From positions 88,803-152,802 of the forward strand of contig JABSSW010000076.1 of the NCBI GenBank assembly GCA_018902385.1: DNA of 64,000 nt, given 5' to 3'. Both the position numbers and the translations under genes were made by a program. Within the stretch, counting starts at the first letter, position 1. Every line of letters starts with the position of its first letter. Source of the stretch: Physcia stellaris (taxonomy: Eukaryota; Ascomycota; Lecanoromycetes; Caliciales; Physciaceae). This document shows positions 38,095-64,000 of the stretch, one piece after another. The notes beneath the pieces are model-generated. The model was given only the letters and a program-made list of their open reading frames with translations, made no database searches and was not told where the DNA came from.

Positions 38095-40395
38095 ACGTCG
38101 AAATTTCGATTTTTTTTTTCGAATTGCAAGATTTCGCGTTCACGCGAAATTCTAAACGCAATTTTTTTTACGTTGTCAATATGTTGTGACGCAAAATCAA
38201 ATTAAATAATATAAATTTACAAATAAATTCGAAATTTTTTTTAAAAAAAACTTTGTCGAGAATTTTTAAAATTAAAATCAAATTTGATAAAATTACGAAA
38301 TTTTCGCATCGAAATCAAAATTTCTTGCGATTTTATCGATTTCGCATCTTAATAATTTTTTAATTGAATAAATAAATTATACATTCGAAAATTTGTTTTG
38401 AAACACGAAATGAACATTATTCAAAAAATCAAAAATATCAAAAATCGAACGAATGCGCATTGAATTACAATAAATATAATATTGTTGTTTCGCAAACGTT
38501 GTTGCGAAATTGTTTTACAAACACATTTTTTAACAGAATTTTTCAAATTTCAAAATTATTGCGATAATAAATCGATTTTTGTTATTTTACAACATTGAAT
38601 TGCGTTCATTCTGTTTTACAATTGTGATTAAATAAATGAAAATTATATTTGATTGTTAATTGATGTGCAAATTACAAATCAATTGCAACAACAAATTACA
38701 TTTTTGATAATTGATCGTCAAATAGATTTTGCGTTAAATAAATCGAAAAAAATGTCGCAAATTTGAAATTCATAATTGAAAAATTCAATAACAAACATGA
38801 TAGTCGAAAAAAATATTCGATTGATTTTAACGTTTGAAATTCGTTTCGAATTGTTTAATTAAATAATCAAAATCATTGTTTTTTATTGTTTCAAATCAAC
38901 AACGTTTCGTCAAAAACGAATTTCAAATAATTGAAATTCGTTTCAAATCGTTCATTGTTAATTCAAAATTTACATTTGAAACATTAAATTGTTTTAAAAT
39001 ATTTCAAAACGCATCAAATAAATTCATTTTTTTCGTATAATTTTTGATTGATTATTTTTTTGTTTTGTTGATTGTTGTTCGTGCGCATCATGCATTTAAA
39101 AATCATTAATTTTTTTGAAATTTTTTCTCATTTATTTCGTTTTTTTTTTTTTTTGAATATTCAAATCGTTTTTTACATATCAAAATTATTGATAATTTGT
39201 ATTGTTTTTGTCGTATCAAATATTTTTTATTTTTTTATTTCGCGTATATTTTGAAATTTTTGTTTTAAAATAATTCTTAACGTCATTTTTATTATTGAAT
39301 TTATCGATTCGTGTTAAATTATTAATTAAATTTTGATTGATTGTTTTTATTAAACACGAAATGCAAAATTTGTATTCAATATATATTAAATCGTTTTCGT
39401 AATTATATTTTTGTATCGTTATTGATTTTTCGAAACGTTTTTTATAATTTATTTGCAATTTTTTTCATTAAATTGTAATTTTCATTCGTTTTGATAAATC
39501 AAAATTTTCGATACAAAATATTTTCAAATATTTTTTCGTTTTGTACATTTATTTTTTTACATTATGTTTGTCAATTTAAATCGTACGTGAATATTCATTT
39601 TTGATCGTTTTTTTGTTCAATAAAATTCGAATCTGAAAAAATAATAATCATATTGTGTATAACAATTACTGCGAATACATTTCATAACAAGACAATTTTC
39701 GAATTCAAACAACATTATTTCGCTGCTTAAAATAACAATAATCTATTCAAAACAACAGAATTTTCATAAATCAAAAGTATATAAAGTTTTTTTAACATCA
39801 AACAAATTTATCGAAATACACGATTGATTTGATATCGAAACAGCGACGATCAATCTTTATATTTGTTATTTTTTTTTATTACAGTTTGTTTCTATTTTAT
39901 ATCAACGTTCGTGTACTTTCAATTCATCTTTTTCGTCAAGTTTTTTTTCACAACATAATTACAAAACAATTTGAAACGTTGCATTTATTTGCGTTTTTCG
40001 CAATTCAAAATCAAAATTCAAAATCGTTTTGTTTTCGCTTTTCAACGAATTCGTTTTTTCGAAAATTTTGAAAATTGTTCGTGTTTGTTTCAATTCATGA
40101 CGTTTGATTTTGTCGCGTTGCAATTTCGATTGTTTCGATTTCGAACATTCAAACAAAATGATAATTATTATAATCAAAATTTTGTATTGTTGTTTGAAAT
40201 TTGATTGAACGAATTGTTTCATTTCGCAACGAACAACAATTTGATCGTAAACATCGCGATTTCGATTATACATTGCGTCGAAATTCAAAATTTGAATTAA
40301 AAACGACAACGCATCGATCGTTTGTTAAAACGTCATGTTTATTGTTGTGAATTTTTTGATCAAAAAATGTTAACGATGTCACAAAAATTCATATT
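38095..40395. repeat. AT-rich, RIP-like mutated DNA (left of chromovirus)
   Basis: Composition switches abruptly near 38,095. In 38,221-38,400 the 17 cytosines are 9 CpG, 5 CpA, 3 CpT and 0 CpC by hand count. All long frames here are low-complexity Phe/Ile/Asn/Lys strings without domains. No gene is supported; the original sequence is unrecognisable. Confidence 0.75.
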
Positions 40396-40400
40396 ACAAT
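40396..40400. repeat. target-site duplication, left copy
   Basis: ACAAT directly before the left LTR; the same five bases follow the right LTR at 46815-46819. Confidence 0.88.
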
Positions 40401-40699
40401 TGTAAGATACGGAGTGTGGCACCAGAGATGTATAGTTTTATTCTGATTGATAGTTAGACTAATTTCTAAAGAACCAGAAATTCTAGTCACTATCCTCTCG
40501 CTATATACAAATGTACGAATAAAGAGAATAAAGAACTCCAATTGCAAGCCACTCGGCTTGCTGCTTGTTGTGGTACAAGGAGGTGCAAACAGCATTCCTC
40601 CTGATCTGGTGTTTGCTCTGCATGTGGCCATGGTGCATACCTCGGCCCTACCGGGGTTCGGCCATACCTTATGCCGACCTGGACCCTGAGTGCCTTACA
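40401..40699 (-). repeat. 3' LTR of the chromovirus (left LTR)
   Basis: 299 bp, starts TGTAAGATACGG and ends GTGCCTTACA. It is nearly identical to the right LTR. Differences include TTTTATTCTG against CCCCCTG near 40436-40445, and point changes near 40568-40610. Confidence 0.93.
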
Positions 40700-40789
40700 T
40701 GCGTCTCCTCCTTAGCACCGAAGTCCCTTGAGGTGACCAGAACCCTTCCATCTGTTCTGTAGCAGGGGTTCCTAGATCTGTATATACCT

Positions 40790-40875
40790 TTGGCTTGGAG
40801 GGCCACTGTCGCCGTGACTTTCGTACCGAAAACCGTTGGTTTGGGGGATCACTGTGGTCGTGACCCCGCATCGAA
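40790..40875. repeat. imperfect 41-bp tandem duplication in the element's 3' non-coding region
   Basis: TTGGCTTGGAGGGCCACTGT (40790-) and TTGGTTTGGGGGATCACTGT (40836-) begin two similar units that each end in CGAA. The unit lies between the chromodomain stop and the 3' LTR. Confidence 0.6.
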
Positions 40876-41225
40876 TATTCTTCGCAATCCACAGCCAGCC
40901 TGCGTTAAAAAACTGAGAGAACACCTTCTTGGGTGACCCAGGAAAAGCATGGTCTGATGGCTCTACTGCCTGCTGCTTCCAGTATCGAGAGCCTGATTTC
41001 GTATAATCCACAGCCCCCGATAAGGTGACTGACAGCTGACTTGTTGACAGCGAGACCCGGGTCGAATCCTTCCTGACTTCCTTATCCTCCTGCTCCCGTA
41101 TACCAGGGTCGAAATGTTATTGCAAGGCTGTTGGGCGAGATAGGCGCGAATAGTCGCGACCGCAGTTGGTATACCAGGCTTCGAAAACCTCATCTTGCAC
41201 CCAACAACATACCTTACATCCATAC

Positions 41226-41783
41226 TCAACGCCCAACTAGACCGGGCAGCAGCCTCTGGAGGTGTTTCTGGCAGGGTTCAGCTCTCCATGCGTCGTAAGT
41301 CCTAGGCAGTAAGTAGCAACGTCTTGTCAGCGGTTCCACTGTGAGGATCACACCAACCTGACGTCGAACTCGTGGACGATTCGTAAGCTTGCTGGCATCG
41401 TCCTTTTTCGGATTCTTCATATGGAACTCCCTGAGCATACCCCTGAGGTGCTTGACCACTACAATGGGTTCCCAGGTACGTTCCTCGTAGTCCTCCCATT
41501 GAACGATATAATAGTGCCCTGGCTCACTGTATGGCTTATCCGGGACCTGACTTTCTTTGTAGATCTTGCTGTCCAGAATAGCTTCGATCCAATACTCTTC
41601 ATTGGTGAGTTCTTCGTCCTCCTCGATGTCGATGTCACCCGGCTGATATGTGGGTTCTAGCGGAGCTTTCTCCCCCATTTTAGGTATGACCCCTTCGAGC
41701 AACCAGACTTGAAAGACATTGTGGATTCGCCAACGTTTGGGTATATCGATGCGATATGCTTGATCCCCTACCGTATCCAGCAC
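41226..41783 (-). pseudogene. integrase C-terminus with chromodomain
   Basis: After an integrase-tail segment (YRIDIPKRWRIHNVFQVWLL) comes a chromodomain-like module: EYWIEAILDSKIYKES, then HYYIVQWEDYEERTWEP and HLRGMLREFH. Chromodomains of this kind steer integration towards methylated-histone chromatin, which fits the location in a heterochromatin-like region. The frame is separated from the integrase core by a frameshift around 41,790-41,930. Confidence 0.85.
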
Positions 41784-41933
41784 CTTGAACGGTCGGAAGA
41801 AGTTCCATTCCAGTTTCTTGTTGCGTTTGGTGCGGATATTTTTGGCGTTAACGTTGACCTAACTACCCACGTCGAAGGTTCTTCAGCTTTGTCCTTGCAT
41901 CCTTGTACTTGGCCTGCTGTTCCTGAGGGTAAG

Positions 41934-43032
41934 CTAAGTTGGGTTTAGTACTTTCATCAGTTCGGCCAGCTCTTCGGCATGCTCCTTGGCAGATTTTGAC
42001 TTAGCTTTGAAGTTTGCAGGATGCTCGAAGGACATCCTTGGTGTGTACCCCAGCATGGCTTCGAAAGGTGACATCTGCGTGGACGCATGCTTACTATTGT
42101 TATAAGCAAGCTCAGCCATCGGCAGTAGCTCCACCCAGTCGTTCTGCTCGAGGTATTGCTCCATGGTTGAGTTCTGGCCATCTGTCTGCGGATGGTAAGC
42201 CGTGGATAGCTTAAGTTTTATCTTAAGAGCATAACACATTGTGTCGTGATATTTTGCGGTAAAGACCGAGCTCCTGTCTGTTGTTATGGACGATGGGAGG
42301 CCATGAAGTCTAATGATCTCCCGAATCAGTATTTCGGCGAGATCTTCTGCGGTCGCCGTTTTCGTAACTGGGATGTAGTGTGCCATCTTGGTCAGACGGT
42401 CTACCTCGACGAGTTTTGCATCATACGTTGCCCCATCCCATGCTCTGCTTTCTGGAAGACCTGTAACGAAGTCCATTGTAAGGTCAGCCCATTTGAATTC
42501 CGGTATAGGAAGGGACGAGAGCTTTCCATATGGCTTGTGACGAGGTGCCTTGCTCCTTTTGCAAATTGCACATGTTTCGCAGTACTCCTTTACCTGTGCC
42601 CGCATGCTCGGGTCGTGCTCGGCGTCTCCCTCGAGACTACCTCGCTCTTGATTAGGCCAATAATACTTCCTTCGTATCAGTTCAAGGGTACGCTTTACCC
42701 CAAAATGGCCGGCAAGGGGGTTGTCATGATTCGCCGATGACATTTTCTCTCAGACTTGGCGGAACGTATAGGCAGCCATCGTGTCACAGTACCCCTTTTT
42801 CGTCTTGCCAATGCGGGTGTGACATATCAGGAGTAGCTAATTCCTGTCTCACTTGAACCGCACAAGAGTCTTTCTTTAGCAGCGCACGGACCAACTCGGC
42901 AAGAGTGCCAGTGATTTTATCGTCGTATGCCGCATCATGTTCATGGATATGCTTCCGCGCAGCCACCTTGTCGGCCGACTCGGGAATCGTTGCACTACCC
43001 AGTACTAATGTCTTCCACTCGTCGGTGACCAC
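41934..43032 (-). pseudogene. retrotransposon integrase
   Basis: The zinc-binding part shows HDNPLAGHFGVKRTL and YCETCAIC. The catalytic core shows LTMDFVTGLPES (first Asp) and SITTDRSSVFTAKYHD (second Asp). The segment that should hold the third acidic residue reads HPQTDGQNSTMEQYLEQ: the usual residues directly after DGQ are missing, so no Glu stands 35 residues after the second Asp. The frame is also broken near 42,745-42,785. Confidence 0.88.
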
Positions 43033-44793
43033 GTCTGATGCACATCCTTGAGGGTCAGGAGATCACCCGCAGGCCTGTCTTCTTCATTATCATCGGGCTT
43101 GGGCATCGTTGTTTTTACTTCGCTCACGCAGGCCTGGAACTCGTCCGAGGACGACTGCAGAGACTGTCGCAGACGCGCCAGGATCTGACGGTTGTTCTCA
43201 ACCTTTTTCTCAGTTGTGGTCATATGATCAGGCCGCCGGGACAAGCCGTTCGCTGGATTTTTGCTGCCGGGACGGTAATCGATGACAAAGTTGTAGCGTG
43301 ACAGCTCTTGTGCCCATCGTACTTGCCGGGGTGATAACTTCGTTGTAGTCATGAAGCGGCTGAGGTTTCGGTGATCCGTCAGAACGAGGACTTGCTCCCT
43401 CGCTCCCTCCAGGTAATGACGCCGTTGTTTGAACGCGAAGACTATGGCCAGAAGCTCCTTATCGTGGACCTATAGTTGCACTCCGCGGGAATCATCTTTC
43501 TTGAAAAGTAGGCTACCGGATGCCAATGACCTTTATCGTCTGGTTGGCAAAGTATCCCCCCTATTGCTTTAATCGAGGCGTCGGTCTCCACACGAATGGG
43601 CCTAGCCGGGTCGAAATGTTGCAAGATAGGTGTTTTCAGGAATGCATCTCGTAGGCGTTTGAAAGCTTCGTAGGTCTCGGGAGTCAGGAAGTCATTCGGC
43701 AGTCGTTCTTTGTTGTGATTTTTGCTTCGACTTTTGTTCGGGCTACGCTTTCGCTTGGTTTTTTTTTTATGGAGCTCTGCTGACTCTTTTAGCATTGAGG
43801 TTAAAGGTAATGTCAGCTTACTGAAGTTTTTGATGAACCGCCTATAGAAATTGCATAATCCCAGAAACCCCAGGATTTCTGACACGTTCTTGGGTGTCGG
43901 TCACTTCTGTATGGCATCGATTTTATCTTCTTGCATCTGTATTTTTTGGAGATACAACGAAGTCTAGGAAGTCAATGCTGTTTTTGAAGAACTTACACTT
44001 TTTCATGTTGATGAAGAGCTTGTGTTTTCGCAAACGGTCTAGGATTCATTTGACGTTTTCGATGTGCTGCTTTTCGTTCATGGAGTATATGACTATATCA
44101 TTCAGATAGACTATGACAGTGAGATCGAGTCGTTCGGTCAGAATTTTATTGACGAAGCTCTGGAACGTCGCAGGTGCATTAGTTAGACCGAAAGGCAGAA
44201 CGGTATATTCAAAATGCTCATATCGTGTTGAACGTCGTCTTCCACTCATCATCTTCCCTGATACGTAGCCTATTATATGCTGCTATCATATCAAGATTTG
44301 TATAGATGCGAGCCTTGCTCAGACGGTTTAGACTTTCACCGATTAGCGGCAGGGGATATTTATTTTTAATCGTCAAGAGATTCAAGCCTCTGTAATTCAC
44401 ACACAATCTCAGGGTTCCGTTCTTCTTCTTGACGAACAGAATTGGTGCTCCGGCTGAGGAGGTGGAGGGTTTGATGAAACCGTTCTTGAGGTGTTTATCT
44501 AGATAAGCTCGCAATATTTTGAGCTCGTCCTCTGACAGTGAGTAGATGGGATCATAGGGAGGCTTCTTGCCTGGCTCCAGATCAATGGCATGATCGTCTG
44601 GTTCATGATCAGGTAGTTCGTATGTTTTGTTCTCATCTGTCAGGTCAGCGAATTCCTTCAAGACTTCGGGTATGGTGGCTTTGATATTTGGCTTATTTTT
44701 CATTTTCGCGAGGGCCGAACCAATTTGTGCCCGTCGTTCGATGTGTACGTTATTCATGTTCGTTTTCTCGTCACGGAGGATTCGTACGAACAT
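43005..44793 (-). pseudogene. reverse transcriptase and RNase H
   Basis: RT blocks are visible in order: [56 protein letters not shown] and VYLNDIVIYS, then LGFLGLCNFYRRFI. The catalytic pair that is normally Asp-Asp is Asn-Asp (YLND). RNase H blocks follow: VETDASIKAIGGILCQ, HWHPVAYFSRKM, VLTDHRNLSRFM and YNFVIDYRPGSKN. The frame is broken around 44,220, 43,890 and 43,470, and stops occur. Confidence 0.92.
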
Positions 44794-44952
44794 GACGAAG
44801 CCCTGTTCCTTGTCATCGACGACAGCGCTGGCTAGTTCTTCTGGCTCGATTTCCTCGATACGGTTTACGGTGGAGAGGATTGATTTTACAGTCAGTGGCC
44901 ACGGCCCGATTTTATCGGTGTTTCAATCTACTTTTGCGTCTGATAATTGCAT

Positions 44953-45399
44953 TCATGGCAGGCTTAACGTCATATCCCAGGTCAGGTCCGTTTCTATGAA
45001 GCTATCATTGAAGAAACGATTCACATCGTTTTCGTCCTGCACTTCGAACTGCACGAAGTAGACGTCATAGGTCTTGAGGGGGTGATTATCGATAGTCATT
45101 GCTTCGCAGTTAGGCACGTTGGATGGCTCTAATCCGAGTTGTTTAGCAAGGGTATTACTTATCAGACTGATTTCTGTTCCTGGATCCATGACTGCTTCGA
45201 ACTTTAGCTTGTCTTTCTCGCCTGGTCTTTTATTTACCTTGACCATTGTCTTCTTGCATTTAGCCATACGGAGCTTCCTTCGACGGCGTTTGGCGCTTTT
45301 GGTCTCGGTATCGGTCGTGGACGACTCATCAAGGCTAGAATCAGTTTCGTCACTCAGTATAGGGTCTTCCATTGTGCCAGCTTGATTGGAGGTTATCAA
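44953..45399 (-). pseudogene. aspartic protease region of pol
   Basis: A Lys/Arg/Asp-rich leader precedes KFEAVMDPGTEISLISNTLA, aligned with the retropepsin motif D-S/T-G-A; here it reads DPGTE. Stops separate it from the RT upstream frame at about 44,930-44,950. Confidence 0.7.
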
Positions 45400-45419
45400 G
45401 CCGACTATTTTTTTTGATC

Positions 45420-46453
45420 CCGAGCCGAATGCTACCTCCTATGTATGTTTTCCGGCTTTTTATCCTTACAGTCCTTGAAAGTACAGTCTGGCTTACCGCA
45501 GTTTCTGCACTTGTTGTTGTCGACTATATTCTTGAACTCGTCCTTGGTCCAACGTCATAGCTTCTTGGGTTTGACTGGTTCTTGGTTAGGATTATCAGTT
45601 CTGGGTTTCTTATCGCCCTTTCCTTTTCGGTTCCTGTTGGGCCGAGACTGATTGTTGTCTTTTTTTTTTTATCGGAGTCTTCCTCGCCTTTCTTGCGTTT
45701 GTTATAGCTGTTTTTAGGCTTATTCTTGCCTGCACTGCGCTGCTTCTTGCGCTCGTTATTCTCTCGGCATTTGAGACGCTTCAAGATCTCCTCCTTGTTG
45801 TCCTCGATACCTTGCTCTGCGAGGAAGTCCTGATTATCCTGGGTGAGATTCAAGATGAAGTCCTGTAGTTCTATTGCAGGTGAGGGTTTCATGGTCGGGT
45901 GCAGGTCCGCAACGAGGGCAATACGATGGGCATCGTAGTTTCTTACTGATTGGTTGGCTCGTTGTGTGTAATCTTTATATTTCTGGAAGTTGTCCTCTTT
46001 CCTGGTTGAGGCTTTCTGGGTGTTTTCCTTGAGGAAGTCAACATATTTCTTCCATGTATACTCTTTACCTGGGTTGTTTTTGGCTTTAGCATTCCACAAC
46101 AGCTGAGCACTAGATCCCCTCTTCAGAAAGGTGACAGCAAAGGAGAGCTTGACCTTGTCAGGATTCTTAGCGGAGTCGTCCACTTGGTTCATGTCGAATT
46201 GATTCTCCATTTCCCATATGTATTGAGTCCATTCTTTATAGCTATCCCCAGCGAATAGGCCTGGTTTGTTCCCCAATACCTTGATGTAGAACGGCTTCCC
46301 CTTGGAGACTGGCGGAGTGGCTCGATTGCGTAGTACTTCATACCGGGCAGCCTGTTGTTGAATGTATGCTCGATACTCCTGCGGAGTGGCGTCTGGTCCT
46401 GGAGGGTCAAGGACCGGCTCATTGATGTCCGTGAGAGAAGAGGAAGCAGACAT
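45420..46453 (-). pseudogene. gag with zinc knuckle, frameshifted
   Basis: The start codon at 46453 (MSASSSLTD) lies 65 bp inside the 5' LTR boundary. The capsid-like part includes YIKVLGNKPGLFAGDSYKEW and YTWKKYVDFLKE. The frame is lost in an 11-base A run (45660-45670 on +). In the neighbouring frame the sequence continues with basic NRNRKGKGDKKP, a stop, and CRNCGKPDCTFKDC at about 45,480-45,525, a C-x2-C-x4-C-x4-C variant of the CCHC knuckle. Confidence 0.85.
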
Positions 46454-46518
46454 GCTGTTGACTTGGTGTGCTGTATACACGAGTGGTGCTAACCTGATGG
46501 TTATGGTAGAAATTAGAA

Positions 46519-46814
46519 TGTAAGATACGGAGTGTGGCACCAGAGATGTATAGCCCCCTGATTGATAGTTAGACTAATTTCTAAAGAACCAGAAATTCTA
46601 GTCACTATCCTCTCGCTATATACAAATGTACGAATAAAGAGAATAAAGAACTCCAATTGCAAGCCACTCGGCTTGCTGCTTGTTGTTGTATAAAGAGGTG
46701 CAAACAGCATTCCTCCGGATCCGGTGTTTGCTCTGCATGTGGCCATGGTGCATACCTCGGCCCTACCGGGGTTCGGCCATACCTTATGCCGACCTGGACC
46801 CTGAGTGCCTTACA
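46519..46814 (-). repeat. 5' LTR of the chromovirus (right LTR)
   Basis: 296 bp, TGTAAG...CTTACA, nearly identical to the left LTR. Being upstream of gag on the minus strand, it is the promoter copy; it contains a TATATAC stretch near 46,618. Confidence 0.93.
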
Positions 46815-46819
46815 ACAAT
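46815..46819. repeat. target-site duplication, right copy
   Basis: ACAAT, identical to 40396-40400. Confidence 0.88.
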
Positions 46820-49800
46820 TCACGTTGTGATTTTGAAAATGTTTTGTCAAACGATAATCGAAATTTCGAAATTTGAAATTGTGATAAAAAAAATCGTTAT
46901 ATATAAATTATGAATATTCGTCGAAAATCGAATCATTGCGATGTGTGATTCAATCAAAATCTAATTCGACGTAAAAATTCTGTTGAAATTTTGTGATTTG
47001 AAAAACGATAAATTAATTTTTTATTGTGTAAAAACATGATTTGTGTATATAAAATTTAATCACGTAATTTGCGTTTAGACATTATCTCGTCAACGTTTTG
47101 ATTTTTACATAATTGTTGTCAATAAAATAATAAATTTGATTTTTTTCGACGATTCGATTTTAAAATTTGCGTTTTTATATTTTGTTATTTATGATTGAAC
47201 AATAAACACATTGACATCGCATGTATAAATTCGATTTATTAATTTTTCGACACGTTTTTTAATTGTTTCGTTTTTATTGAATTCGTTTTTTTTTTTTTAT
47301 TTTTCGATTTTTTTCAATAAATCGACATTCGAATTTTCGATTATTGACGCGACGCGATCATTGTTTGTAAAAAATTTAAAAACGAAAAAACATTTCGAAA
47401 TCGCGTCAATTTTTTTTTTCAAAAAACATGATATGATATTGTTATAATTGATATTAACATTTCGATTAACGAATTTATCGATTATATTCGAATTATTAAT
47501 ATCAATTTGAAAATTGTTTGATATAAAAATGCGTGAAACAATTTTTTTGTTGTTTCGCAAAATTTTGATCGTTTCGTTCGAATAATCATATTTCAATAAA
47601 ATAATTTTTGAAATTTCATTGTTTTTTACGTTGATTGTGATTCGATTTTTAATTTTATTTTGAAAATATTTGCAAATTTCGTTTTGAACACGAAAATTCA
47701 AATTTTTTCAAATTAATATATAAAATTCGTAATTTTTTGTTGTATGTTAATAATGTAAAAAATCGAAATAACACGTAATATATTTTTCATTATTAAAATT
47801 TCGAATATCATGTTTGTTTTTTGATCATTCGCGAAATATTTTTTAATTGTATGATGTATGATTGTAATTACAAAAAATATTATAACAAAACGAAATTTAT
47901 TAAATATATTTTTGATATACATTTGAAAATCGAAATTATTTTTGAAATTTTTGAAAAATATGTCGTAAATCGCGATATTTATAATATTGACAATAAATGA
48001 AATAAATTATACAACATTTGTTAATTTTTATTGTAATAATTGACACGCATTTATTTATTTCGATTCAAAATTTTCGTAATTAAAACGAATGAAAACATAA
48101 TTGTATAACAATTTCGCAATCAATTGATAAAAATTGACAATAATTTCGAATTGATAATACGAAATCATTATGTTTTTGATTTTATAAATTGTATTAAATC
48201 GAAAATGTCAATTGAATCGTACATTTCTGTTGACGTTAATGTATTTGCATATTTTTTATGTAAATAATTTTACGATTCGCATTTCGAAATTTTGTGATAT
48301 ATTTATAATTTTCGAATATCGTTTTATGTTGCGTTTAAACATTTGTTTGCATTTTTTTTATATTTTCAAAATAAAATCGTTGATCGTATCGAAATTGATT
48401 TTGTTCAAATATTTAATTTAATTTTGATACATTTATTGAATATTAATGTTTGAAAATAAAAAAATTCGTTTCATCAAATAAACATGTTTATCATTAAAAA
48501 AATTGTTTTTGCGTTGTTTAATGATTTTTTAACATTATCGTGTAATCGATATTTTTTCGAACGTTCATGTAACAAAAAATTTTGTCGAAAAAAATATCGA
48601 TTTATATTATATCGATATTTTCGATTGTTCGTTTTTGATAAAAAAATAAAATCGTTTAATTTGTTTCGATTTAATATCGATTGTTTTTTTACAATTGATA
48701 TAAAAATGTTGAAAATATTAATTGATATCGAAATTTTAAATTATTAATAATTCAATACGTTGTTGAATCATTCACGAATAATTTAATTAACAATAATTGT
48801 TAAACGTCGTTTTGATATAATATTCATGTTTTGTTTTTGAATTTTTATTGTTATTGTTTTTTTTTGTATCGATTTCGTCATTCGATATATTTTTGAAATT
48901 ATTCGAAATAATTTTGCGTTTTTGAATGATTTTTGTACGTTTTTTTTGTTGTTGTATTTAAATGTATTTTGTTATGTGCGTGCAAATAATGAATTTGTTT
49001 TTAAATTAACAATATTATTTGATTGAACAATTTAATTCGTGAACAATTAATTGCAATATTAATTATCGCAAAAAAAACAATTTCGAATATTTATTGTGAA
49101 TGTTGTACGTGAAATTTCATATTGTCGATTTTTGCGTTTTTGATTCGATTTAATTTGTTTGAAATTATTGAATTAATCAATCGAATAAATCGTAAATCGA
49201 AAACATTATGTTGAATTTTGATATAAAAACACAAAAATTGAAAAATAAATATATTACAATCAACGCGACATCAAATATGTATCAAAAATAAAAACAAAAA
49301 AAAACAATACAATTTAACGAAAAACGTTTTTAATTGTGATTAACGAAATTGATTAAACAAAATTTTTGTCGTCGATTAAAACAACAATTGTTTGTTTTAA
49401 TCGTTAAATTATTTTGTTGTTTAACGTATTTCGCGAAAATTTAAATTTATTTAATTTTTAACGTGTTTTATCAAATATACGAACGTATTGTTTATTTTTC
49501 GTTTAATTATTTGTATTTTGCTAAATTGTGCGATTGAAATCAAATCAATTATTAAAACAATTTCAAATGTATTAAATTATTATTTATATCAAACATGATA
49601 TTTTTGTAATCGAAATATTTGATTGAAACGATTCACAACGAAAAAAAAAATAAAATATCGTTTTTCGTTAAATTGATATTCATTTTTTTAATACAATTTT
49701 TTTTTTCAAATTTCGAATTCAAAATTTTTAATAAACGATGAATAAAACGACGTCAATAAATGAAACGACGTCAATGATATTTATCGTAATCGTTATTGTT

Positions 49801-52800: not shown

Positions 52801-52889
52801 GCGATCGAAATCAATTTCGAAATCAATTTTTCGATAATAATAATAATCGAAAATCAAATTCAGATAGAATTTTTCTATAATAAAATATT
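46820..52889. repeat. AT-rich, RIP-like mutated DNA (right of chromovirus)
   Basis: Continuation of the desert split by the chromovirus. In 47,041-47,340 a hand count gives 32 C: 18 CpG, 13 CpA, 1 CpT, 0 CpC. Two stretches, 51330-51873 and 52215-52427 on +, read as longer protein-like frames and may derive from a gag-type polyprotein, but no domain can be named. Confidence 0.7.
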
Positions 52890-52989
52890 TCTTAAAATCG
52901 CTTAACGCGAATGATCGACCGAAAAGAATTCTGATCAATTCTGCGTTCGTATTTGTTAAAGTCGATAACTCTCATCAATTGAAAATTCA

Positions 52990-53440
52990 AGTTCTCAATC
53001 GAGACATACGTCAAGATCACCTTCAAACGCTTCAATAATTTGCAATTATTTCGCATTTTGCACATCAAGCAACAATCACATATGATTTTCATGTATTCAG
53101 TCAAAGTTGTAGAACAGAATCAGCGCATTTCAACGTTGCAAAAATAATAAAAATCGACTCATTATCGCAATAGTTTTGACGTTTCGAAAACTTCGTCGTT
53201 GTCAAATCGTCAATTGAGATGTTTGCGAAAATGTTTTCGCTCAATTCTTCGAAATCTGTACAGTTACTTCGCATCTTGCATTTCAATCAACAATCTCATA
53301 TGATTTTCGCGTATCTAGTCAAGATTATAAAACAGAATAAGCGCATTTCAACGCTTCAAAAATTGTACAAATCGATTCATTGTCGCAATAGTTTTGAGAA
53401 TTCGAAGATTACGTCGTTGTCAAATTTGTGTCTGCTGAAA
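52990..53440. repeat. two tandem ~219-bp repeats in a less mutated island
   Basis: TTCGCATTTTGCAC at 53050 and TTCGCATCTTGCAT at 53269 head two similar units that share CATATGATTTTC, GCGCATTTCAACG and ATAGTTTTGA at the same spacing. Similarity extends upstream to about 52,990. CT, CC, AG and GG dinucleotides are frequent here, unlike the surroundings (island about 52,890-53,720). On the minus strand both units encode a short Cys-rich string (CKMRNNC, CKMRSNC). No gene is assigned. Confidence 0.65.
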
Positions 53441-53799
53441 TGTGTTGCGTTCGATTCTCGGCGATGTCTGCAGCGTTTCAATGCGATTTCGATCATAACT
53501 CAATGCGCACTCGATGAATATTCGATATTATTGATTATTTGAATAGAGCTCATAATGAGCTTCAAAATGAGTTTTCGTTTGTATATTTTACTTATTGAGT
53601 GTAAATGTTATTAAGATGCGAAGTCGTTGACATCGCAAAGCAATTGCGAAATGTCGATTTTCGCAATCTTATCAGATTCAAATCTAATTCTGAAGTTCTG
53701 CATGGAATTTTTTTGAAAAAATTCACGAGCAGCCTTGTAACAATAATAATAAACAAAATTCTAAAAATGATCGTGTCGATAATCGAATTAATAATTATT

Positions 53800-54378
53800 A
53801 TATTTATCAATCGACGTTTCAACAATTTCGTTTCGACAATTTTTCATATCAAAATCGAATTTATCAAAATAATCAACAATCAAACGATCGTCAATCACAA
53901 CGCGTTTTGTCATTCGAAAAACAATTATTTCAAATTATCGACGAAAACGTGTCAAATTCGCGAAAAAAATTTTCACGAAACGTTCAATCATTTGTTGATA
54001 ACAATCGATCAAATAATAACAACAATATTCGTCAAAAAACAAAATTTACGTTTTTGATGAAAAAAACGAAAATGAAATTATTGAAAAGTTTGTTGAAAAT
54101 TTCAACAATAATCAGAACGTTTTCTATTCGCAAAATTTCAATTATTATGATTCGAATTACGAATTTGACGATTTTGAAAACGACGTTTTCGCAATTTATT
54201 TCGTGATTTTTACGTTTGCAATTGAATGTCGTCGATATTACAAAACATTCGAATTCAATAATCAATTACACGTTCATTTACACATCGATTGTCAAAGTGA
54301 ATTGCGAAAAATTTTCACAATTTTAATCGTCGAAATTTCGTTTATTGTTGTCATCAAAATTTTTAACATGTGAATCGT
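53800..54378 (+). pseudogene. degenerate gag-like retroelement remnant
   Basis: An Asn/Gln-rich string is followed by a frame with NQNVFYSQNFNYYDSNYEF and then ECRRYYKTFEFNNQLHVHL, which resembles the C2H2-like finger often found between gag and protease in fungal gypsy polyproteins. It ends where LTR A begins, so it may be a separate, older element truncated by insertion of A. Confidence 0.45.
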
Positions 54379-54605
54379 TGTTACGAACATGTCTGACAGA
54401 TAAATTTGACAAATAAATAGTTAATATGATATGTGATCGAGTAACGAATTATGTTTTAATTTTACGTCGGAATTCACGTGATTGAAAATTTGACGTCGCA
54501 TATTGTTTGCAATTTCAACATTTTATATTTATTTGTTTTTGCAAATTTACTGTTTTCGTTTAATTAATCAATCAATACAATCATACAAACACGATTCATG
54601 ATATT
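54379..54605 (+). repeat. 5' LTR of element A
   Basis: Begins TGTTACGAACATGTCTGAC and ends around CACGATTCATGATA. It aligns over its whole length with 60019-60243 and, inverted, with 60329-60564. The exact 3' border is uncertain by several bases. Confidence 0.82.
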
Positions 54606-57403
54606 ACAATAAATTTTTAATTTTTATCGTTCGTCGTGATACGCGAACGTTCAAAAATAAAATTTCAAATCGATCAAATTTTTCGTGCGAAACAAACGAC
54701 GAAAAGTTTTTTTGACGAAACAAACAACAAAAATCGTATAATTACAAATCGAATTTATACGCAAACGACGAAATTTTCGACGATAAAAACGACAAAAACG
54801 ACGACGATTTTTTTTATTTTTTTTATTTCTCGAAATGATTCGAAATCATTATGATATAATTCAATTCAATTTTTTGCGTCAGAATTTGAATATCGACAAA
54901 ATGCAACAAAACATTGAACATATGTTGACGAATTTTCAGAAAATCGACGAAAAATTCACGATTCGTTACAAATTTCGTCAATTTTTTTTACGTTAAACGT
55001 TGTGTCGAATCAAAACGACGATATTACATATTTTTTGAATATAAAAATCGTTCGTCAATTGAAATATTGAATTCAACATTATTTCAACGATTTTTTGAAC
55101 GTATTCAACGATTTACGTTTCGATCGAAACAAATACGTGATCGTTTTAAAAAAATTCATCAATTCGTCAAAATTTACAAAATTCAAAAACAAAATTTATT
55201 CGAAATCGACAACGTTTTCGAAAAAATGCACGACAAATTTAAAACGTCAAGAAATGAAAAAAAAAAAACGAATTATAATTCAATCGAAAAAATTTGACAA
55301 ACGTGTCGAATATGACGATTTGATAAAATCGAATGAAATTCGTCGTTTCGAACGCGTTTTTAATTTCGATTTAAATGAAAATTCAAACAATATCGACGAT
55401 GACGAGAAAAATTTGTTGATGACGATTCGATCGTTACAAATTTTATTAAATTTTCGAAAAAAAAAAACGCACGAACAAATATTTCAATTTCGAAAAATTC
55501 ACGAACGATGTGAATTTTGATTGATTCACGTAAAAAATTAACGTTTACGATAAATTCACGATCAACAACGATTGATACGAAATTGTTCGATTTATGATCA
55601 CGACAATAATTGATTGAATTGAAAAAAAAAACGAAATATATTCAATTTTGTCGATACAACAATTTGAATTATTTCGAAAATAAAATAATGATAATCAATT
55701 TTCTCGAAAACATTTATGAAAATTCAAATCATCAACGCAACGTACGTTGAAAATATCGAAATTTGATCATGTTTGACATTCAAATTTTTCAATTTTTTTA
55801 TTCGAATTTTTATCGTTTGAATATTCAAATCAATTTTGATCAATTTACATTTAAAAAATTTGATGAACAAATTTATCATGTCGTTGAAACAAACTTTGAA
55901 CAATTTGTTTCGTCATCATTTCATTTTGCTCGCGTAAAAATGACATTTAACAAATGTATAACGATTTGATCAATATTCGAAAAAAAAATTCGCATTCGAA
56001 TTCAAAAATCAATTTTCGTAATTTTCAAATCGACGTTTGTTGTTTCAATTGCAATTTCGTTTGTCAAATCAATCACATCGACGTTTTTCGTTAAATTCAA
56101 AAACGATCATAAACATGATTCGATTATCGATCAATTGATTGTCACGAACAAATATTTCACGTATGAAAAATTCGATCACAATTGAAAATTTTGTTTCAAC
56201 GTCAACAAATTTCAAAAACGTCAATGACATAAATTACAAATACATCAATTGAATTTTGATATCGATTCGAGCGAATTTGATTCGAAAAATTGACAATTCA
56301 CGTCAAAAACGCGATTGATGAATGTTTAAAAAAAAATTTTATTCACGATGATAATATGTTTGATTTTTTCATTAAACGATTTTTAATCATTATTTGTACG
56401 TTATCATTCAACGATAATAAACATAAATTAAAAATTTTAATAAACATTGATGCAATCGATTATGCGTTGAAATTGATAAAAAAATCGCGCAATTTGTATG
56501 CAACATGTTGAATATAAAATTCGTATTTTTATTGAAATCGAAATCATTGATTGAATTCGACGATTATCATGTTTTTTTTATAATTTACGCGATATATTTC
56601 AAATTGACGATAAAATTACATTTCGAATTGATTGTTTTTTTGTTAATTATTGATTTCGATAATTTTTCGATAATTTTAAAAAAAATCGTGAATGAACAAA
56701 CATGAAATCATATTGAACATGATTTACGATAAATTGATTTTCAAATCGTTCAAATGTAATTATCACGACAACATATTCAATCAAACGATTTAAATTCGTC
56801 GTTTGAAAATTTTCAAATCAAATCGTCGATAAAATGTATCTAATTGACGTCGCGACGTTGTATTATTTCAAAAAAACAATATTGAACACATAACGACGAT
56901 GATGTTTCGATATATCATTTTACAACGATTCAAAATTAAATTTTTATTTTTTATTGTTGAAAATGAATCAAATGCATTCGATTCGAAATGTTTCGAATAT
57001 TCAATTCATTCAAAAATCGATGACGACGACGAATCATCAACAATTGAATCAAATAATTCAAAAATTGATATTACGATTGTTACGAAAACGACATTCGTCA
57101 AAAAAAAAATTGAAAAATCAACGCAATAAACGATGAAAAACGAAAAAACAACAATTCGAATTTTCGTCATTTTCAAAATTGAATTTTGACGATTCGATAA
57201 ATATCGTTATGATTGATGAAAATTTTTTTTTTGTTGATCGAAATCAAAAATCGAAAACAAAAAATTCAATGTTTTTCAATTACGATCAATCAAATCGATT
57301 TCGCATTCAAAACAATGCAAACGAATTTTGAATCGTTGAAAATCGCGATCATAATTAAAAAATTTTAAAACATGAACAAATCAAATCAATATTCGAACGC
57401 ATA

Positions 57404-57844
57404 ATGAAAAAAATATCAAAATATTTTCGACATTTATCAAAAATATTCGATTTTCAAAAAATTATCAAATTGTTTTTTCATAAATCGTACGATCACAAAA
57501 TTGAATTTTTGAACGATAACAATTTTTTATTTCGCAATCGAATGTATTTTTTATTCGAATTCAAATTTAAAAAATTCAAAAAATATTTGAAAAAAAATTT
57601 GCAAAAAAAATTTATCGTATTTAATCAAACGACATATGTTTCATTTGTTTTATTTGCGATCAAATTCAATAATCAATTACGTTTGTGTGTGAATTATCGT
57701 CGATTCAATTATATCACGAAACGTAATCGATATTTTATTTTTTTGATCGAAAAAATTTTGATCAAAATTCAAAATTGCAAATATTTGATCAAACTGAATA
57801 TCATATCAATTTTCAATAAATTTCGAATGAATGAAAAAAAATGA
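57404..57844 (+). pseudogene. reverse transcriptase remnant of element A
   Basis: Readable RT landmarks: SYDHKIEFLND, then [32 protein letters not shown] and CKYLIKLNIISIFNKFRM. Expected Pro positions are Phe, and the Asp of the conserved L-D-I block is Asn. These are G-to-A or C-to-T outcomes. Confidence 0.85.
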
Positions 57845-58371
57845 AAAATTTATCACGTTCGTCATTTTTATGAAATCGTATAAATATCGAATATTATTTT
57901 TTGAATTAATCAACGATTTTGCAAATTAACAACATTACATGAATGATTTTTTGTTCAATTTTTTGAACGAGTTCTGTCAAATTTATTTGAATAACATATT
58001 CGTTTACAACAAATTAAAAAAAAAAAACATATCGTGCACGTTCGAACAATATTGAAAAAATTCAAAAAAATCGATTTACAAATGAATATTGAGAAATGCG
58101 AATTTTTAAAAAAAAAATAATTTTTTTAAACGTTATATTTTCGATGAATGATTTTCGCATGAATTCAAAAAAAAAATACAAATCATAATTGATTGAACAC
58201 GATTTACAAATTTCAAGAAAATAAAAATTTTCGTGAATTTCGTTAATTTATATCGACGTTTCATTCGTGATTTTTCGAAAAAAATTAAAATTTTCATTCG
58301 AATGATCAAAAAATTCGTAAAATTCGAATGAATTACGAAAACAAAAAATTTTCAATTTATTCAAAAAAACG

Positions 58372-58593
58372 ATGATCGAAATTTTTATATTTCGTCATTA
58401 CGATAAAATCAAACAAATCATTTTAAAAATCGATTTTTTAAATTACGTCAATGCGAAAATGTTATCGCAATACGATGACGAAAAAATTTTACATTTCGTT
58501 GTTTTTTACAATCGAAACATGATTTCAATCGAATACAATTACGAAATTTATAACAAAAAAATATTGATCATTATTCGTTGTTTGAAACATTGA
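58372..58593 (+). pseudogene. RNase H remnant of element A
   Basis: Reads FRHYDKIKQIILKIDFLNYV, then LSQYDDEKILHFVVFYNR, NYEIYNKKILIIIRCLKH, which follows the gypsy RNase H pattern (bait segment, catalytic strand, YDKELLAI block) with Glu-to-Lys and Pro-to-Phe changes. Confidence 0.82.
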
Positions 58594-59114
58594 CGTTCGA
58601 AATTCGAAAACATTGAAAAATTCATTAAAATTTTCATTGATTACAAAAATTTGAAAATTTTCATAATTTCGAAAAAATTAATTTTTCGTCAAATTCGTTG
58701 AATCGAAATTTTATCGAAATTCAACATCGTCATTCAATTTCAATTTGAAATTCAAAACGTCAAAATCGACATTTTGATTCGTATGTCGAATTCAAAATTC
58801 AAAAACGATAATGACGAACGACATCAATATAAAAAACAAATATTGTTTATTTCGAAACGATTCGAAATTCATGTCGTCGAATTTGACGAATCAATTTACG
58901 AACGAATTTTCGTCGTCAACAAAACAAACGACGATTGCAAAACATATCGTGAAATATTCAATCAAAATTTCATTTTCGTATGAATTTTTCGTCGAATTTT
59001 ATTTCGTATGTCATTTAAAAAGCAATTTTTGATCGTTAAAACGAAAAATATCACGAACACAATGCAAAACATTTTCGATTATATACGAGTTCACGTCGAA
59101 ATAATTCAAAAAAA

Positions 59115-59327
59115 ATGACGACGCAAATCAACAAACATCGCAAAATCGTGAAATACGTCGAAAAAAAACGTTTTTTTTTGAATCGACGAAACATCAAAAT
59201 CGTTAAATTATTCGACAAATTCGATGACAAAAAATTGAATTCATTCAAAATGTTACAACGTCGAAACAATTTTTTCAATTTGAATTATCTGAAACAATGC
59301 GAATTTACGATGTTTTTTCATTGTTGA
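59115..59327 (+). pseudogene. integrase C-terminal tail remnant of element A
   Basis: INKHRKIVKYVEKKRFFLNR followed by KLFDKFDDKKLNSF corresponds to the integrase tail after the catalytic core. The same stretch occurs inverted at 61395-61583 in copy B. Confidence 0.78.
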
Positions 59328-60018
59328 TTTTTTCGCAAAAATTTTTGCGATTTTTCGAAAATCAAATCAACAAATTATTCGATTCTGTTATAGTCAACGA
59401 GAATATCGAATAAAAAATGAACGATGTTTTAAAATTTCGATATCATTACGATCGTTTTTAATATCGCGTCAATTGATCGAATTGATCGCATAATCGAATT
59501 TAATATTACGTCGATAACGATGAATTCGATAACGTTCGTGACGTAATAAATAATTATTATCGAAATCATTTTATCGTCGCAAATTCGAAATCATTCAAAA
59601 TTACAATTTTTTTCAAATTGAATTCAAGATTCATTTGCGAATCGTCGTCGTTTTCGAAAAAATCGTCGTTTTGATTTTTATTGAAATTACATTCGATTAA
59701 AATTTGAAAATTTCGAATTCGATACATTCATTTGAATTTTTATTGTTTCGATTTTCAAAATTTTCAAATTTTTTATTATCGTTTCGATGTTGTTTACAAT
59801 CAGAATTTATATCACATAAAAAGTTGAATCGTGTCAAAAACATTTTCAAAAATTGTTGTCAAATTTTATCGAACGTTGAAACAATAACAAAACATCAAAA
59901 AATAAAATTTGATGATCGTGAAATTTCTGAATTTTGCAAACATTCAAATCAATTCATAAAATTTTTAAAATTTCGAAACAACAACAAATCGTCGAGACGA
60001 CGTTTGCGAAAAAAAAAA

Positions 60019-60243
60019 TGTTATGAAAATATTTGACAAATAGATTTGACAAATAGATAATTAATATGATATGTGATCGAAACGAATTATGTTTTAATTT
60101 TACGTCGAAATTAACGTGATTGAAAATTTGACGTCGCATATTGTTTGCAATTTCAACATTTTATATTTATTTGTTTTTGCAAATTTATTGTTTTCGTCTA
60201 ATTAATCAATCAATACAATAATACAAACACGATTCATGATAAT
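60019..60243 (+). repeat. 3' LTR of element A
   Basis: TGTTATGAAAATATTTGAC... CACGATTCATGATA; similar to 54379-54605 throughout. It is preceded by an A-rich tract (60008-60018) that fits a mutated polypurine tract. Confidence 0.82.
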
Positions 60244-60328
60244 CGTGATCGAAATTTTTCGAATTGATTTCTTGTCGAAAATTTCAATTTTTTTGAAAAA
60301 ATCGAAATCAACAAATTTAATCAAAACT
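60244..60328. other. 85-bp spacer between the facing 3' LTRs
   Basis: AT-rich sequence between copy A's 3' LTR and copy B's inverted 3' LTR; no feature recognised. Confidence 0.5.
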
Positions 60329-60564
60329 ATCATGAATCGTGTTTGAGTAAACGTAATATTAATTAACTAAACAAAAACAATAAATTTGCAAAAACAAATA
60401 TGTACAAAATGATAAAATTGTAAACAATGTGCGAACGTCAAGTTTCAAATCACGTTAATTTCGTCAAAAAATTAAAACATAATTCGATTCAAACATATTT
60501 GTTTAATCATTTATCATATCAATTATTTATTTGTCAAATTTATTTGTCAAACATGTTCGTAACA
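60329..60564 (-). repeat. 3' LTR of element B
   Basis: Reverse complement of the A LTRs: reads on the minus strand TGTTACGAACATGTTTGAC... AACACGATTCATGATA. Confidence 0.82.
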
Positions 60565-61394
60565 TTATTTTTTTTTTCGCGAACGTCGTCTCGACGATTC
60601 GTTGTTGTTGCGAAATTTGAAAATTTTGTTGAAAATTTTGTTGAATCAAATTGTATAATTGCAAAATTCAAAAATTTCACGATCATCATTTTTCATTTTT
60701 TAATATTTTAATGTCATTTCAACGTTCGATAAAATTTAACGACAATTTTGAAAATGTGTTTTTGACACGATTCAATTTTTCATGCGATGTAAATTTTGAC
60801 TGTAAATAACATCGAAAAATAATAAAAATTGAATTGTTGAATAAAAATCGTAAAATCAAAAACAAATGAATGAAAATTGAATTCGTGATTTTCAAATGTT
60901 AATCGAAAATAATTTCGATTAATGTTAACATGACGATTTTTTTCGAAAACGACGACGATTCGTTGAAAAATCTGATTCGTTAATCGCGATTTGAAATATT
61001 GAAATCAACGTTTTGAACGATTTTGAATTTGTTGTCGTGAAATGAATACGATGAAAATCGTTCATCACGTCGCGAACATTATCGAATTTTTCGTTATCGA
61101 CATAATATCACGTTCGATCATGAAATCAATTCGATCAATTAATACGATATTGAAAACGATTGTAATAATATCGAAATTTCAAAATATCGTTCATTTCTCA
61201 TTCGAAATTCTCGTTGACTATAACGAAATCGAAAAATTCGTTAATTTGATTTTCGAAAAATCACGAAAATTTTTGCGAAAAAATCAACAATGAAACACAT
61301 CGTAAATTCGCATGATTTTTGATAATTCGAATCGATAAAAATTGTTCATACGTTTTAATATTTTGTACGATTTTAATTTTTGTCATCAAATTTG

Positions 61395-62099
61395 TTAAAA
61401 CGATTTGATCGTTTTGATGTTTCGTCGATTCAAAAAAACGAAATTTTTTTCGACGTATTTCACGATTTTTCGATATTTGTTGATTTGAACGATTATACGT
61501 TTTTGAATCATTTTTGCATGATTTCGTACGTAATTGAAAATATTTTGTATTGTATCGATGATATTTTTTGTTTTAACGATCAAAAATCACTTTTTCGTTG
61601 TAACATACGAAATAAAATTTGATAAAAAATTCATACGAAAATGAAAATTTTTATTGATAAAAAATGATAATAATTTTGTTGTTGCAAATATCGCGTTATT
61701 GTTTGCAAATTCGATCATGAATAATCAAACGTTTCAATCGTTTTGCATGTAATTGCAATATTGTCGCAATTGTTTTTCGATATTTTGATTGATTTTTTCG
61801 ATTTGTTTATCGATTTTTGAATGAAAAACGATAAAAAATTTACATTTGATGTCGAAAATTTTGCAAAATGTTTGTCAAACGAATGATATAAATTGAAATT
61901 TTCGATTTAACGTTATAAAAAAAAATAATTCATGCGTACGAAACACGTAATTGATAAATATTTTGATCGTGATTTTCGCATTTGTATTTTCATCGTCGAC
62001 GATGCAAAACACGTAATAACGTTTTTTATTAAATTTGTCAATTATCGTGCAAATGACGTTGTGATCGTAAACGTCGAACAATTCGATAATGAAATTCAT
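61395..62099 (-). pseudogene. integrase core and tail remnant of element B
   Basis: The core reads MNFIIELFDVYDHNVICTII, then KKRYYVFCIVDDENTNAKI and FRTHELFFFITLNRKFQFISF, which follows the gypsy integrase order (first Asp region, second region before PQF). Both Asp positions appear as Asn (MNF and LNR), as G-to-A change would give. The tail INKYRKIVKYVEKNFVFLNR follows at 61,583. Confidence 0.75.
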
Positions 62100-62350
62100 A
62101 AATATGTCGATTCAACGTTGCAAAAAAATAATCAAAAAATGAATAAATTTTTTTTTTCGATTTCGAAAAATTTTCGTACGTTGATATTCATAACAATTGC
62201 GTACGTATCGACGAACGAATTTGCGCATGTTGAATCAATAATAATCGTAACGTATAAAATTTTTCATACGATTGAAATTTGAATGTTTTGAAATCGAAAA
62301 TTAATGAATTTTTTTGAAAAATTAACGAATAAAAAAACGTCGACAAGCAT

Positions 62351-63614
62351 TCATAGTCGATCATTTCGATATAAAATATCGTTTTTTTTATTGCAATTTC
62401 GTAAATCGATTTCGTTCATTGATATGAAATTTTGTTCGATAATTTCACGATATATCGTGCAATTATCGTCAATTTTATTGACAATCAAAATTCGTTCGTA
62501 AATAAATTCGTCAAATTTTATCGCGTGAATTTCGAATCGTTTTGAAATAAACAATATTTGTTTTCGATATTGATGTCGTTCATCAATTTCGTTTTTGAAT
62601 CGAAAATCAAACATACGAATCAAAACATTTGTTTTAACGTTTTGAATTTCGAATTGAAACTGAATGACAATGTTGAATTTCGAAAAAATTTTCGTTCAAC
62701 GAATTTGACGAAAAATGAGTTTTTTAAACGTCATGAAAATTTTCAGTTTTTTGTGATCGATGAAAATTTTGATCGATTTTTCGATATTTTCGAATTCAAA
62801 ACGTCAATGTTTTAAACAGCGAATGATAATTAATAATTTTTTGTTATAAATTTCGTAATTGCATTTCGATTGAAATCATGTTGCGATTATAAAAAACAAC
62901 GAAATGCAACACTTTTTCGTCGTTATATTGAAATAATATTTTTGCGTTGACGTAATCAAAAAAATCGATTTTCAAAATGATTTGTTTTGTTCGATCGTAA
63001 TGTCGTAATATGAAAATTTTCGTCATTGTTTTTTTTGAAAAATTGAAAATTTTTCGATTTTTACAATTCATTCGAAATTTACAAGTTTTTTGATTATTCG
63101 AATGAAAATTCGAATTTTTTCGAAAAATCACGAATGAATCGTCTGTAAAAATTGACGAAATTCACGAAAATTTGTATTTTTTCAGATTTGTAAAACGTTT
63201 TCAATTAACAATGATTTTTATTTTTTTCGAATTCATGCGAAAATTATTTATCGATAATATGACGTTCAAAAATGTCATTTTTTTTTGAAAAATTCGCATT
63301 TTTCAATATTCATTTGCAATTCGATTTTTTGAATTTTTTCAATATTTTACGAACGTGAACGATGTGTTTTTTCTTGAATTTGTTGTAAATGAAAATATCA
63401 TTTCAATAAATTTGACAAAAATCGTTCAAAAATTGAATAACAAATCGTTTATGTAATGTTGTCGATTCGCGAATTCGTTGATCAATTCGAAAAATAATAT
63501 TCGATATTTGTATGATTTCATGAAAATAACGAACGTAATAAATTTTTCATTTTTTTCATTCATTCGAAATTTGTTGAAAATCGATATGATATTGATTTGA
63601 TCAAATATTTGCAA
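62351..63614 (-). pseudogene. reverse transcriptase and RNase H remnants of element B
   Basis: INIISIFNKFRMNEKNEKF (63,600 region) matches the end of the RT frame of A. FILRHYDRTKQIILKIDFFD and FQYNDEKVLHFVVFYNR match RNase H of A. DERHQYRKQILFISKRFEIH matches the linker at 58,774 of A. Confidence 0.82.
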
Positions 63615-64000
63615 TTTTTGTATTTTAATTAAAATTTTTGATCAAAAAAATGAAATATCGATTGCGTTTCGTGATATGATTGAATCGTCGATAATTCACA
63701 CACAAACGTAATTGATCATTTGATTTGATTGCAAATAAAACGAACGAAACGTAAATCGTTTGATTGAATACAATAAAATTTTTTTGAAAATTATTTTTCA
63801 AATATTTTTGAATTTTGAAATTTGAATTCGAACAATGAATATATTTTGTTTCCGAAACAATGTATTGTTATCGTTTAAAAATTCGATTTTGTGATCGTAA
63901 AATCGATGCGATAACAATTGATTGTTTTGAAAATCGAATATTTTGACAAATGTTTGAAATATTTCGATATTTTTCATTATACGTTCAAAATCGATTTGAC

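Follow-up and report, generated by a model that had tools for sequence, protein, structure and literature searches.

What would make cytosine disappear from repeated fungal DNA only where the next base is a pyrimidine? The question is raised by a 64,000-nucleotide stretch of the ascomycete Physcia stellaris (Lecanoromycetes; GenBank assembly GCA_018902385.1, contig JABSSW010000076.1, forward-strand positions 88,803 to 152,802). This stretch, referred to here as the window, is part of one contig (C76) of a 43.97-Mb assembly in 147 contigs. Its AT-rich blocks nearly lack cytosine followed by T or C (CpY), and they are very probably the product of repeat-directed mutation of the type known as repeat-induced point mutation (RIP), an ascomycete genome defence, operating with a 3′-pyrimidine rule. 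The blocks would then be hypermutated repeated elements, and the mutator would choose its cytosines by their 3′ neighbour and act if that base is a pyrimidine, at rates falling in the order CpC > CpT >> CpA > CpG. Direct support comes from C-to-T change on both strands, the context rule itself, the finding of such change in repeats but not in the unique DNA that was sampled, near-saturation of copies that are otherwise little diverged, and the presence of candidate genes.

The context rule in the window and in aligned chromovirus copies

A preliminary description of the window, based on hand counts, had proposed that cytosine is retained before A and G but nearly absent before T and C. Recounting gave the same picture. 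Positions 57,241-57,540 hold 26 CpA and 17 CpG but no CpT, CpC, ApG or GpG, and the only correction is to 26 G and 9 TpG, in place of 25 and 8. Likewise, 47,041-47,340 holds 13 CpA, 18 CpG, one CpT and no CpC, and 38,221-38,400 holds five CpA, nine CpG, three CpT and no CpC.

Counts for whole blocks, summed over both strands and set against the expectation from base composition, extend this pattern. Together, the three mutated blocks contain 6 CpC/GpG where ~519 are expected and 122 CpT/ApG where ~1,678 are expected; CpA/TpG is above expectation and CpG far above it (~4 times expected). The most heavily mutated block, at 46,815-52,866 (GC 0.22), has seen/expected counts of 1/142 for CC+GG, 25/514 for CT+AG, 663/514 for CA+TG and 622/142 for CpG on both strands. 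The corresponding counts are 3/60, 34/205, 274/205 and 218/60 in the block at 38,101-40,442 (GC 0.23), and 2/317, 63/959, 1166/959 and 1320/317 in the block at 53,739-64,000 (GC 0.25). Two controls within the window are normal, namely positions 1-38,000 (CC+GG 4434/4737, CT+AG 5157/4750) and the chromovirus, a Ty3/gypsy long terminal repeat (LTR) element on the minus strand at 40,443-46,814 (728/738 and 845/795). The border on the gene side is abrupt, with 18 CpY-type dinucleotides in 38,001-38,100 vs. two in 38,101-38,200; matches to genomic copies start at 38,181.

The proposed depletion on both strands outside the chromovirus is therefore confirmed against the normal DNA of 1-38,000. It is graded rather than uniform, since CpC loss is saturated and CpT loss not quite. 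The small island at 52,867-53,738 had been placed outside the depletion altogether. It appears instead as a half-way stage, in which CpC is nearly gone (CC+GG 5/50) but CpT is largely kept (CT+AG 68/98).

The direction and context of change can be read from copies of the chromovirus elsewhere in the genome. The window's un-mutated chromovirus served as the reference, a stand-in for the ancestor, and both strands were scored. Forty genomic matches were obtained (from 32 scored of 219 first-look candidates), one locus being the window itself (L005), and 29 other loci were aligned. With one un-mutated locus (L032) set aside, 28 mutated, AT-rich copies remained. Among 63,091 aligned positions with C in the reference, the copies have T at 29,780, A at 1,737, G at 696 and C at 30,878; that is, C:G to T:A transition on both strands, as in RIP. 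Sorted by the 3′ base, C-to-T change affects 12,718 of 13,928 CpC, 13,055 of 16,643 CpT, 2,566 of 16,700 CpA and 1,441 of 13,387 CpG sites. The preliminary description had named change mainly at CpA in aligned repeats as an outcome that would speak against it, and changes instead lie at CpC and CpT and hardly at CpA. Since the reverse class (C in the copy, T in the reference) amounts to 3-15% at CpA and CpG, change at these two sites is mostly ordinary divergence.

The base at +1 informs the outcome by 0.4165 bit. A further effect of +2 or 5′ context was sought in the aligned copies, and positions −3, −2, −1, +2 and +3 contribute at most 0.006 bit each (0.0006 for −1). Individual copies retain 0-13 CpC and 18-244 CpT sites. 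The implied ratio of CpC to CpT rates is 2.0-5.2, and in the 12 copies that have lost every CpC it is a minimum. The hazard at CpA amounts to 0-3% of that at CpT in 10 of 11 low-divergence copies and to 9% in the remaining one, L028. From these leftovers and ratios, the order is CpC > CpT >> CpA > CpG, which is nearly the reverse of that in Neurospora. The claim of a CpY-specific repeat mutator thus stands after both of its own tests, refined to a graded rule.

Two features of the copies bear on mechanism. Copy L028 shows only 0.8% transversions, yet 269 of its 275 CpC and 352 of its 372 CpT sites are changed. In addition, the two strands are unequally mutated in six of the 28 copies (p < 0.05/28), five toward one strand and L007 toward the other.

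Genomic distribution, a ribosomal DNA relic and other features of the window

CpY depletion is not confined to the window. Twenty arbitrary 2-kb samples, drawn from 16 contigs, comprise 17 that are normal and three AT-rich ones with GC of 0.26-0.28. Each of the latter is of the CpY type, with values of 0.00-0.01 for CC, 0.12-0.15 for CT and 3.4-3.7 for CG. The flanks of the element copies are mostly of the same kind: 47 of 57 are AT-rich and CpY-depleted, and ten are mixed or normal (58 flanks in all, less the 3′ flank of L008, in which 1,235 of 1,400 positions are N). A second outcome that had been named as speaking against a repeat mutator was the same loss in unique DNA. None is seen in 1-38,000 or in the 17 normal samples; the three CpY-depleted samples may be repeats.

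Most of the mutated DNA in the window is repeated. Copies elsewhere, from ten to dozens and mostly 80-96% alike, match 47,113-50,815, 54,378-57,571, 57,572-60,019 and most of 38,181-40,401. For example, 57,572-60,019 has 77 matches at the 40 scored of 694 candidate places. These copy lists are lower bounds, as 37 of 900 candidates were scored and the window's own place is not listed; the search covered the mutated blocks apart from 60,020-60,566 and 63,817-64,000.

Length may also matter. RIP has a length threshold, and short duplications escape it. In the un-mutated chromovirus fragments the main matches span 826 and 523 bp, whereas all 28 mutated matches are at least 1,092 bp long. This comparison involves only two short fragments (L032 on contig C8 and L058 on C22), which have normal GC and both represent one end of the chromovirus, and they could reflect either a length threshold or sequence retained by the host.

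Evidence that is independent of any transposon comes from ribosomal DNA (rDNA). Among 39 scored of 2,644 first-look candidates, a single 5.8S match was found, itself mutated and lying in a decayed rDNA unit on contig C41 (L036/L037; 40,500-50,000, 9.5 kb read) that is CpC-poor in ten of ten windows. The ancestral base can be inferred here because rRNA is strongly conserved. In the upper-case columns of the Rfam consensus, change is seen at 17 of 19 CpC, 12 of 27 CpU, 0 of 18 CpA and 0 of 24 CpG sites. Over all Rfam columns, the figures are 79 of 100, 46 of 72, 9 of 66 and 18 of 76, respectively. These columns comprise 5.8S and six of the eight 28S blocks; two blocks over 454-635 and the small-subunit rRNA were left out. 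CpA, the usual though not defining target of RIP, is thus preferred neither in this unit nor in the 28 chromovirus copies. No intact rDNA was seen in a shallow search, and an 18S motif had no exact match, which shows little; the assembly probably lacks a working rDNA array. Mutated rDNA relics occur in N. crassa too (PMC5555474).

The copy on contig C6 lacks the island at 52,867-53,738, which is thus probably a nested or low-copy insert; elsewhere the island has short matches only. Perhaps mutation is still at an early stage there, with CpC hit first.

The large inverted repeat at 57,572-63,816 lies within the third mutated block. Its arms, at 57,572-60,019 (plus strand) and 60,567-63,816, measure ~2.5 and ~3.2 kb and are 79-85% alike in two aligned pieces. 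They differ by 270 changes of the C/T type, of which 90 precede A, 62 precede G, 23 precede T and 95 stand beside another difference or a gap. The arms say little about the rule, because both are saturated at CpY.

The un-mutated chromovirus is surrounded by saturated DNA. Its LTRs, at 40,443-40,699 and 46,558-46,814, differ at five of 257 bases, and its coding sequence is broken into several separate open frames. The element may be a recent insertion that has not yet been hit in a sexual cycle, or else the process may now be rare. The remainder of the window, at 1-38,000, is gene-bearing DNA (GC 0.50) with open reading frames and with a U4 spliceosomal RNA gene at 2998-3151 on the minus strand.

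Candidate enzymes and competing explanations

Paired duplications would be mutated during the sexual cycle, with a C5-methyltransferase from the RID/DIM-2 group making the changes and setting the rule. The assembly contains a mating-type alpha-box gene. A search with the PF00145 profile gave four matches that represent three genes (two matches being exons of one gene), of which two are RID-like and one is DIM-2-like. The last (L002) was assigned on close relation to the solved fungal "DNA (cytosine-5-)-methyltransferase" 9bap/9baq, with an E value of 2e-181 to 9bap, while DNMT1 follows as the next group at 1e-34; 9bap would be DIM-2, to judge by its length and name. RID-A (L001) has 513 residues and two introns, and RID-B (L035) ~934 residues and one intron, all introns having been placed by eye; across 307 residues of their catalytic parts the two proteins share 40% identity. 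Both have intact PPCQ and GNAVPP motifs, and motif VI is EQT in RID-B and EET in RID-A. EQT at motif VI is a hallmark of the RID/Masc1 class. The catalytic part is ~295 residues in RID-A and RID-B vs. ~390 in the DIM-2-like protein, and the PF00145 catalytic domain of RID/Masc1 (Dnmt1 class I) is shorter than that of class II (PMC4352252). Both proteins can thus be classed, as predicted from sequence, as RID/Masc1-like. RID-A is the odd one and, at a guess, the first suspect for the context rule.

A RID-like enzyme is the likely agent. The DIM-2-like enzyme is a considerably weaker candidate, and an agent of some other kind is weaker still. That the organism has a methyltransferase system with a different context rule, as the preliminary description had suggested, is plausible given these three candidate genes.

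Whether one enzyme or two would be at work bears on the same proposal. In a variant of it, one RID-like paralogue would mutate CpC and the other CpT. Two such genes are present, CpC and CpT reach different extents, and the island has lost CpC and kept most CpT. The same numbers are nevertheless accounted for by one enzyme that prefers CpC several-fold, and the division of labour is possible but doubtful. A different proposal dispenses with a dedicated mutation step. Vegetative CpY methylation by a DIM-2-like enzyme would be followed by deamination of 5-methylcytosine over evolutionary time, and a DIM-2-like gene is indeed present, with a review crediting the Neurospora enzyme with a CpT preference (PMC13297926). 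A table in the same review, however, lists every CpN context for DIM-2, whereas here CpG is at base line. Moreover, the near-complete CpC and 95% CpT change of L028 at so few transversions, along with the strand-unequal copies, fits enzymatic bouts of mutation better than slow decay, which is accordingly unlikely.

Ultraviolet-type damage to dipyrimidines, or an artefact of assembly or sequencing, has next to no likelihood. CpT and CpC are dipyrimidines, but damage of this kind would also be expected where C is the 3′ member, and such cytosines are not hit, because TCA (799 of 5001) and TCG (586 of 4848) are at base line, in contrast to TCT (3634 of 4601) and TCC (3755 of 4093). Against an artefact stand the sharp borders and the presence of an un-mutated element within a mutated block. 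Mutation of single strands by an AID/APOBEC-like or other cytosine deaminase would accommodate the strand-unequal copies. AID/APOBEC deaminases, however, read the 5′ neighbour, and the base at −1 is nearly uninformative here; a methyltransferase suits a 3′-base rule, and a deaminase is highly improbable. A search for APOBEC_N gave no match in the assembly, but since no control matched either, the result is uninformative. Two familiar processes were rejected on the aligned copies. RIP of the CpA type does not agree with change at 2,566 of 16,700 CpA vs. 12,718 of 13,928 CpC sites, and decay of CpG in methylated DNA does not agree with CpG change (1,441 of 13,387) that equals the base line and with the absence of CpG loss.

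Several observations weigh against RIP-type mutation with a 3′-pyrimidine rule, or narrow it. The mutated DNA is only partly shown to be repeated: among scored places, 50,816-52,866 and 53,738-54,328 have one other copy (on C6) and 46,815-47,112 has none, and the three AT-rich genomic samples may be either repeated or unique. Because the reference only stands in for the ancestor, 5-18% of CpG sites already differ as a base line. CpA is not absolutely spared, as it is a weak third target in L028, the most mutated copy (102 of 372 CpA vs. 13 of 267 CpG). The three methyltransferases are candidates for the agent that would set the rule. Finally, HP1, sought by its chromo-shadow domain, was not found, although control genomes gave no match either, making this uninformative.

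Relation to known systems and consequences

RIP in N. crassa, which depends on RID and DIM-2, resembles the process in P. stellaris in its C:G to T:A change on both strands of repeats, its AT-rich relics and the presence of RID-like and DIM-2-like genes. It differs in its order, which is CpA > CpT > CpG > CpC (PMC5496416), and in its products, which are TpA-rich, whereas here they are TpA-poor and CpG-rich, with stops mainly at TGG. RIP in Trichoderma reesei is likewise repeat-directed and C-to-T, with an order unlike that of Neurospora, but CpC is the context least used there (PMC5496416). Amselem et al. (2015) described signatures of the CpA, CpT and CpG kinds, the CpT kind occurring in species in which CpA is seen too, and "CpC" appears nowhere in their text (PMC4352252). 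CpT-rich signatures are reported there for Botrytis cinerea, Sclerotinia sclerotiorum and Magnaporthe oryzae, with CpT predominant in two genomes. CpT is a main target in these fungi as here, but there it accompanies CpA, whereas here CpC is best and CpA nearly spared. The CpG-type signatures of basidiomycetes such as Microbotryum (PMC4352252) also depart from CpA; here, CpG is unmutated and a 3′ pyrimidine is the rule.

Elsewhere, CpT-to-TpT change was dominant in control alignments of Van Wyk et al. (2021; PMC7882544), RIPCAL found high CpT change in Stagonospora and in the N. crassa element Tad1 (PMC2621366), Anisogramma shows CpA and CpT (PMC10998396), and in Monilinia CpA is accompanied by CpC-to-TpT double changes (PMC8959702). 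A CpC-first rule is absent from the available parts of PMC5555474, PMC6300479, PMC8254937, PMC3516569, PMC8759822 and PMC10515909, and a survey of 1,239 fungal species by Badet and Croll (2025) concludes that defences of the RIP type "share a preference for CpA" (PMC12543289). The view that no CpY process had been described must therefore be softened as far as CpT-rich RIP beside CpA is concerned; what is unusual is that CpC is targeted and CpA hardly at all. What is known already is CpT beside CpA, with mentions of CpC change, and what appears to be new is the CpC-first, CpA-sparing rule. This rule was not found in the open-licence literature, and an earlier description in Clutterbuck (2011), the main ascomycete survey, is possible.

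The MIP/Masc1 system of Ascobolus (methylation induced premeiotically) produces methylation only, with no base change. A Masc1/RID-class enzyme acts on repeats there as may be the case here, but here bases are changed. The system is also named in PMC4352252.

The unusual rule has consequences for how such DNA is recognized. In 19 mutated 1-kb windows, the TpA/ApT product index averages 0.48 and the substrate index 1.35. Their difference, the composite RIP index, lies below zero in all 19 (mean −0.87 vs. −0.58 in 38 unique windows). The usual test therefore calls CpY-mutated DNA un-RIPped, and such DNA escapes surveys. An index suited to the rule, (CpT+ApG+CpC+GpG)/(CpA+TpG+2CpG), separates the same sets of 1-kb windows, with means of 0.04 and 1.03, respectively. 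The codons turned into stops in the open frames of the chromovirus also differ. TGG was converted in 345 of 370 cases, compared with 10 of 297 for CAA, 7 of 419 for CAG and 3 of 278 for CGA; canonical CpA RIP would hit CAA and CAG. TCG (23) is also among the top 15 gained stops and represents a site difference outside the CpY rule.

The TpA-poor relics of P. stellaris bear on the idea that TpA-rich DNA marks RIP relics for heterochromatin. Purified RID protein is described in a review as having no detectable methyltransferase activity (PMC13297926), and a natural set of enzymes with a nearly reversed preference offers a direct handle on how RID-class enzymes choose their cytosines. If the rule is as described, DNA mutated in this way would be scored as never mutated by standard indices and may have been overlooked in other genomes. 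On balance, it is somewhat more likely than not that P. stellaris belongs to an ascomycete lineage in which the RIP rule has been inverted to favour a 3′ pyrimidine, with CpC first, that mutation of this kind has been overlooked in other genomes, and that a change in the 3′-base recognition of one RID-class enzyme would have been enough to bring it about.

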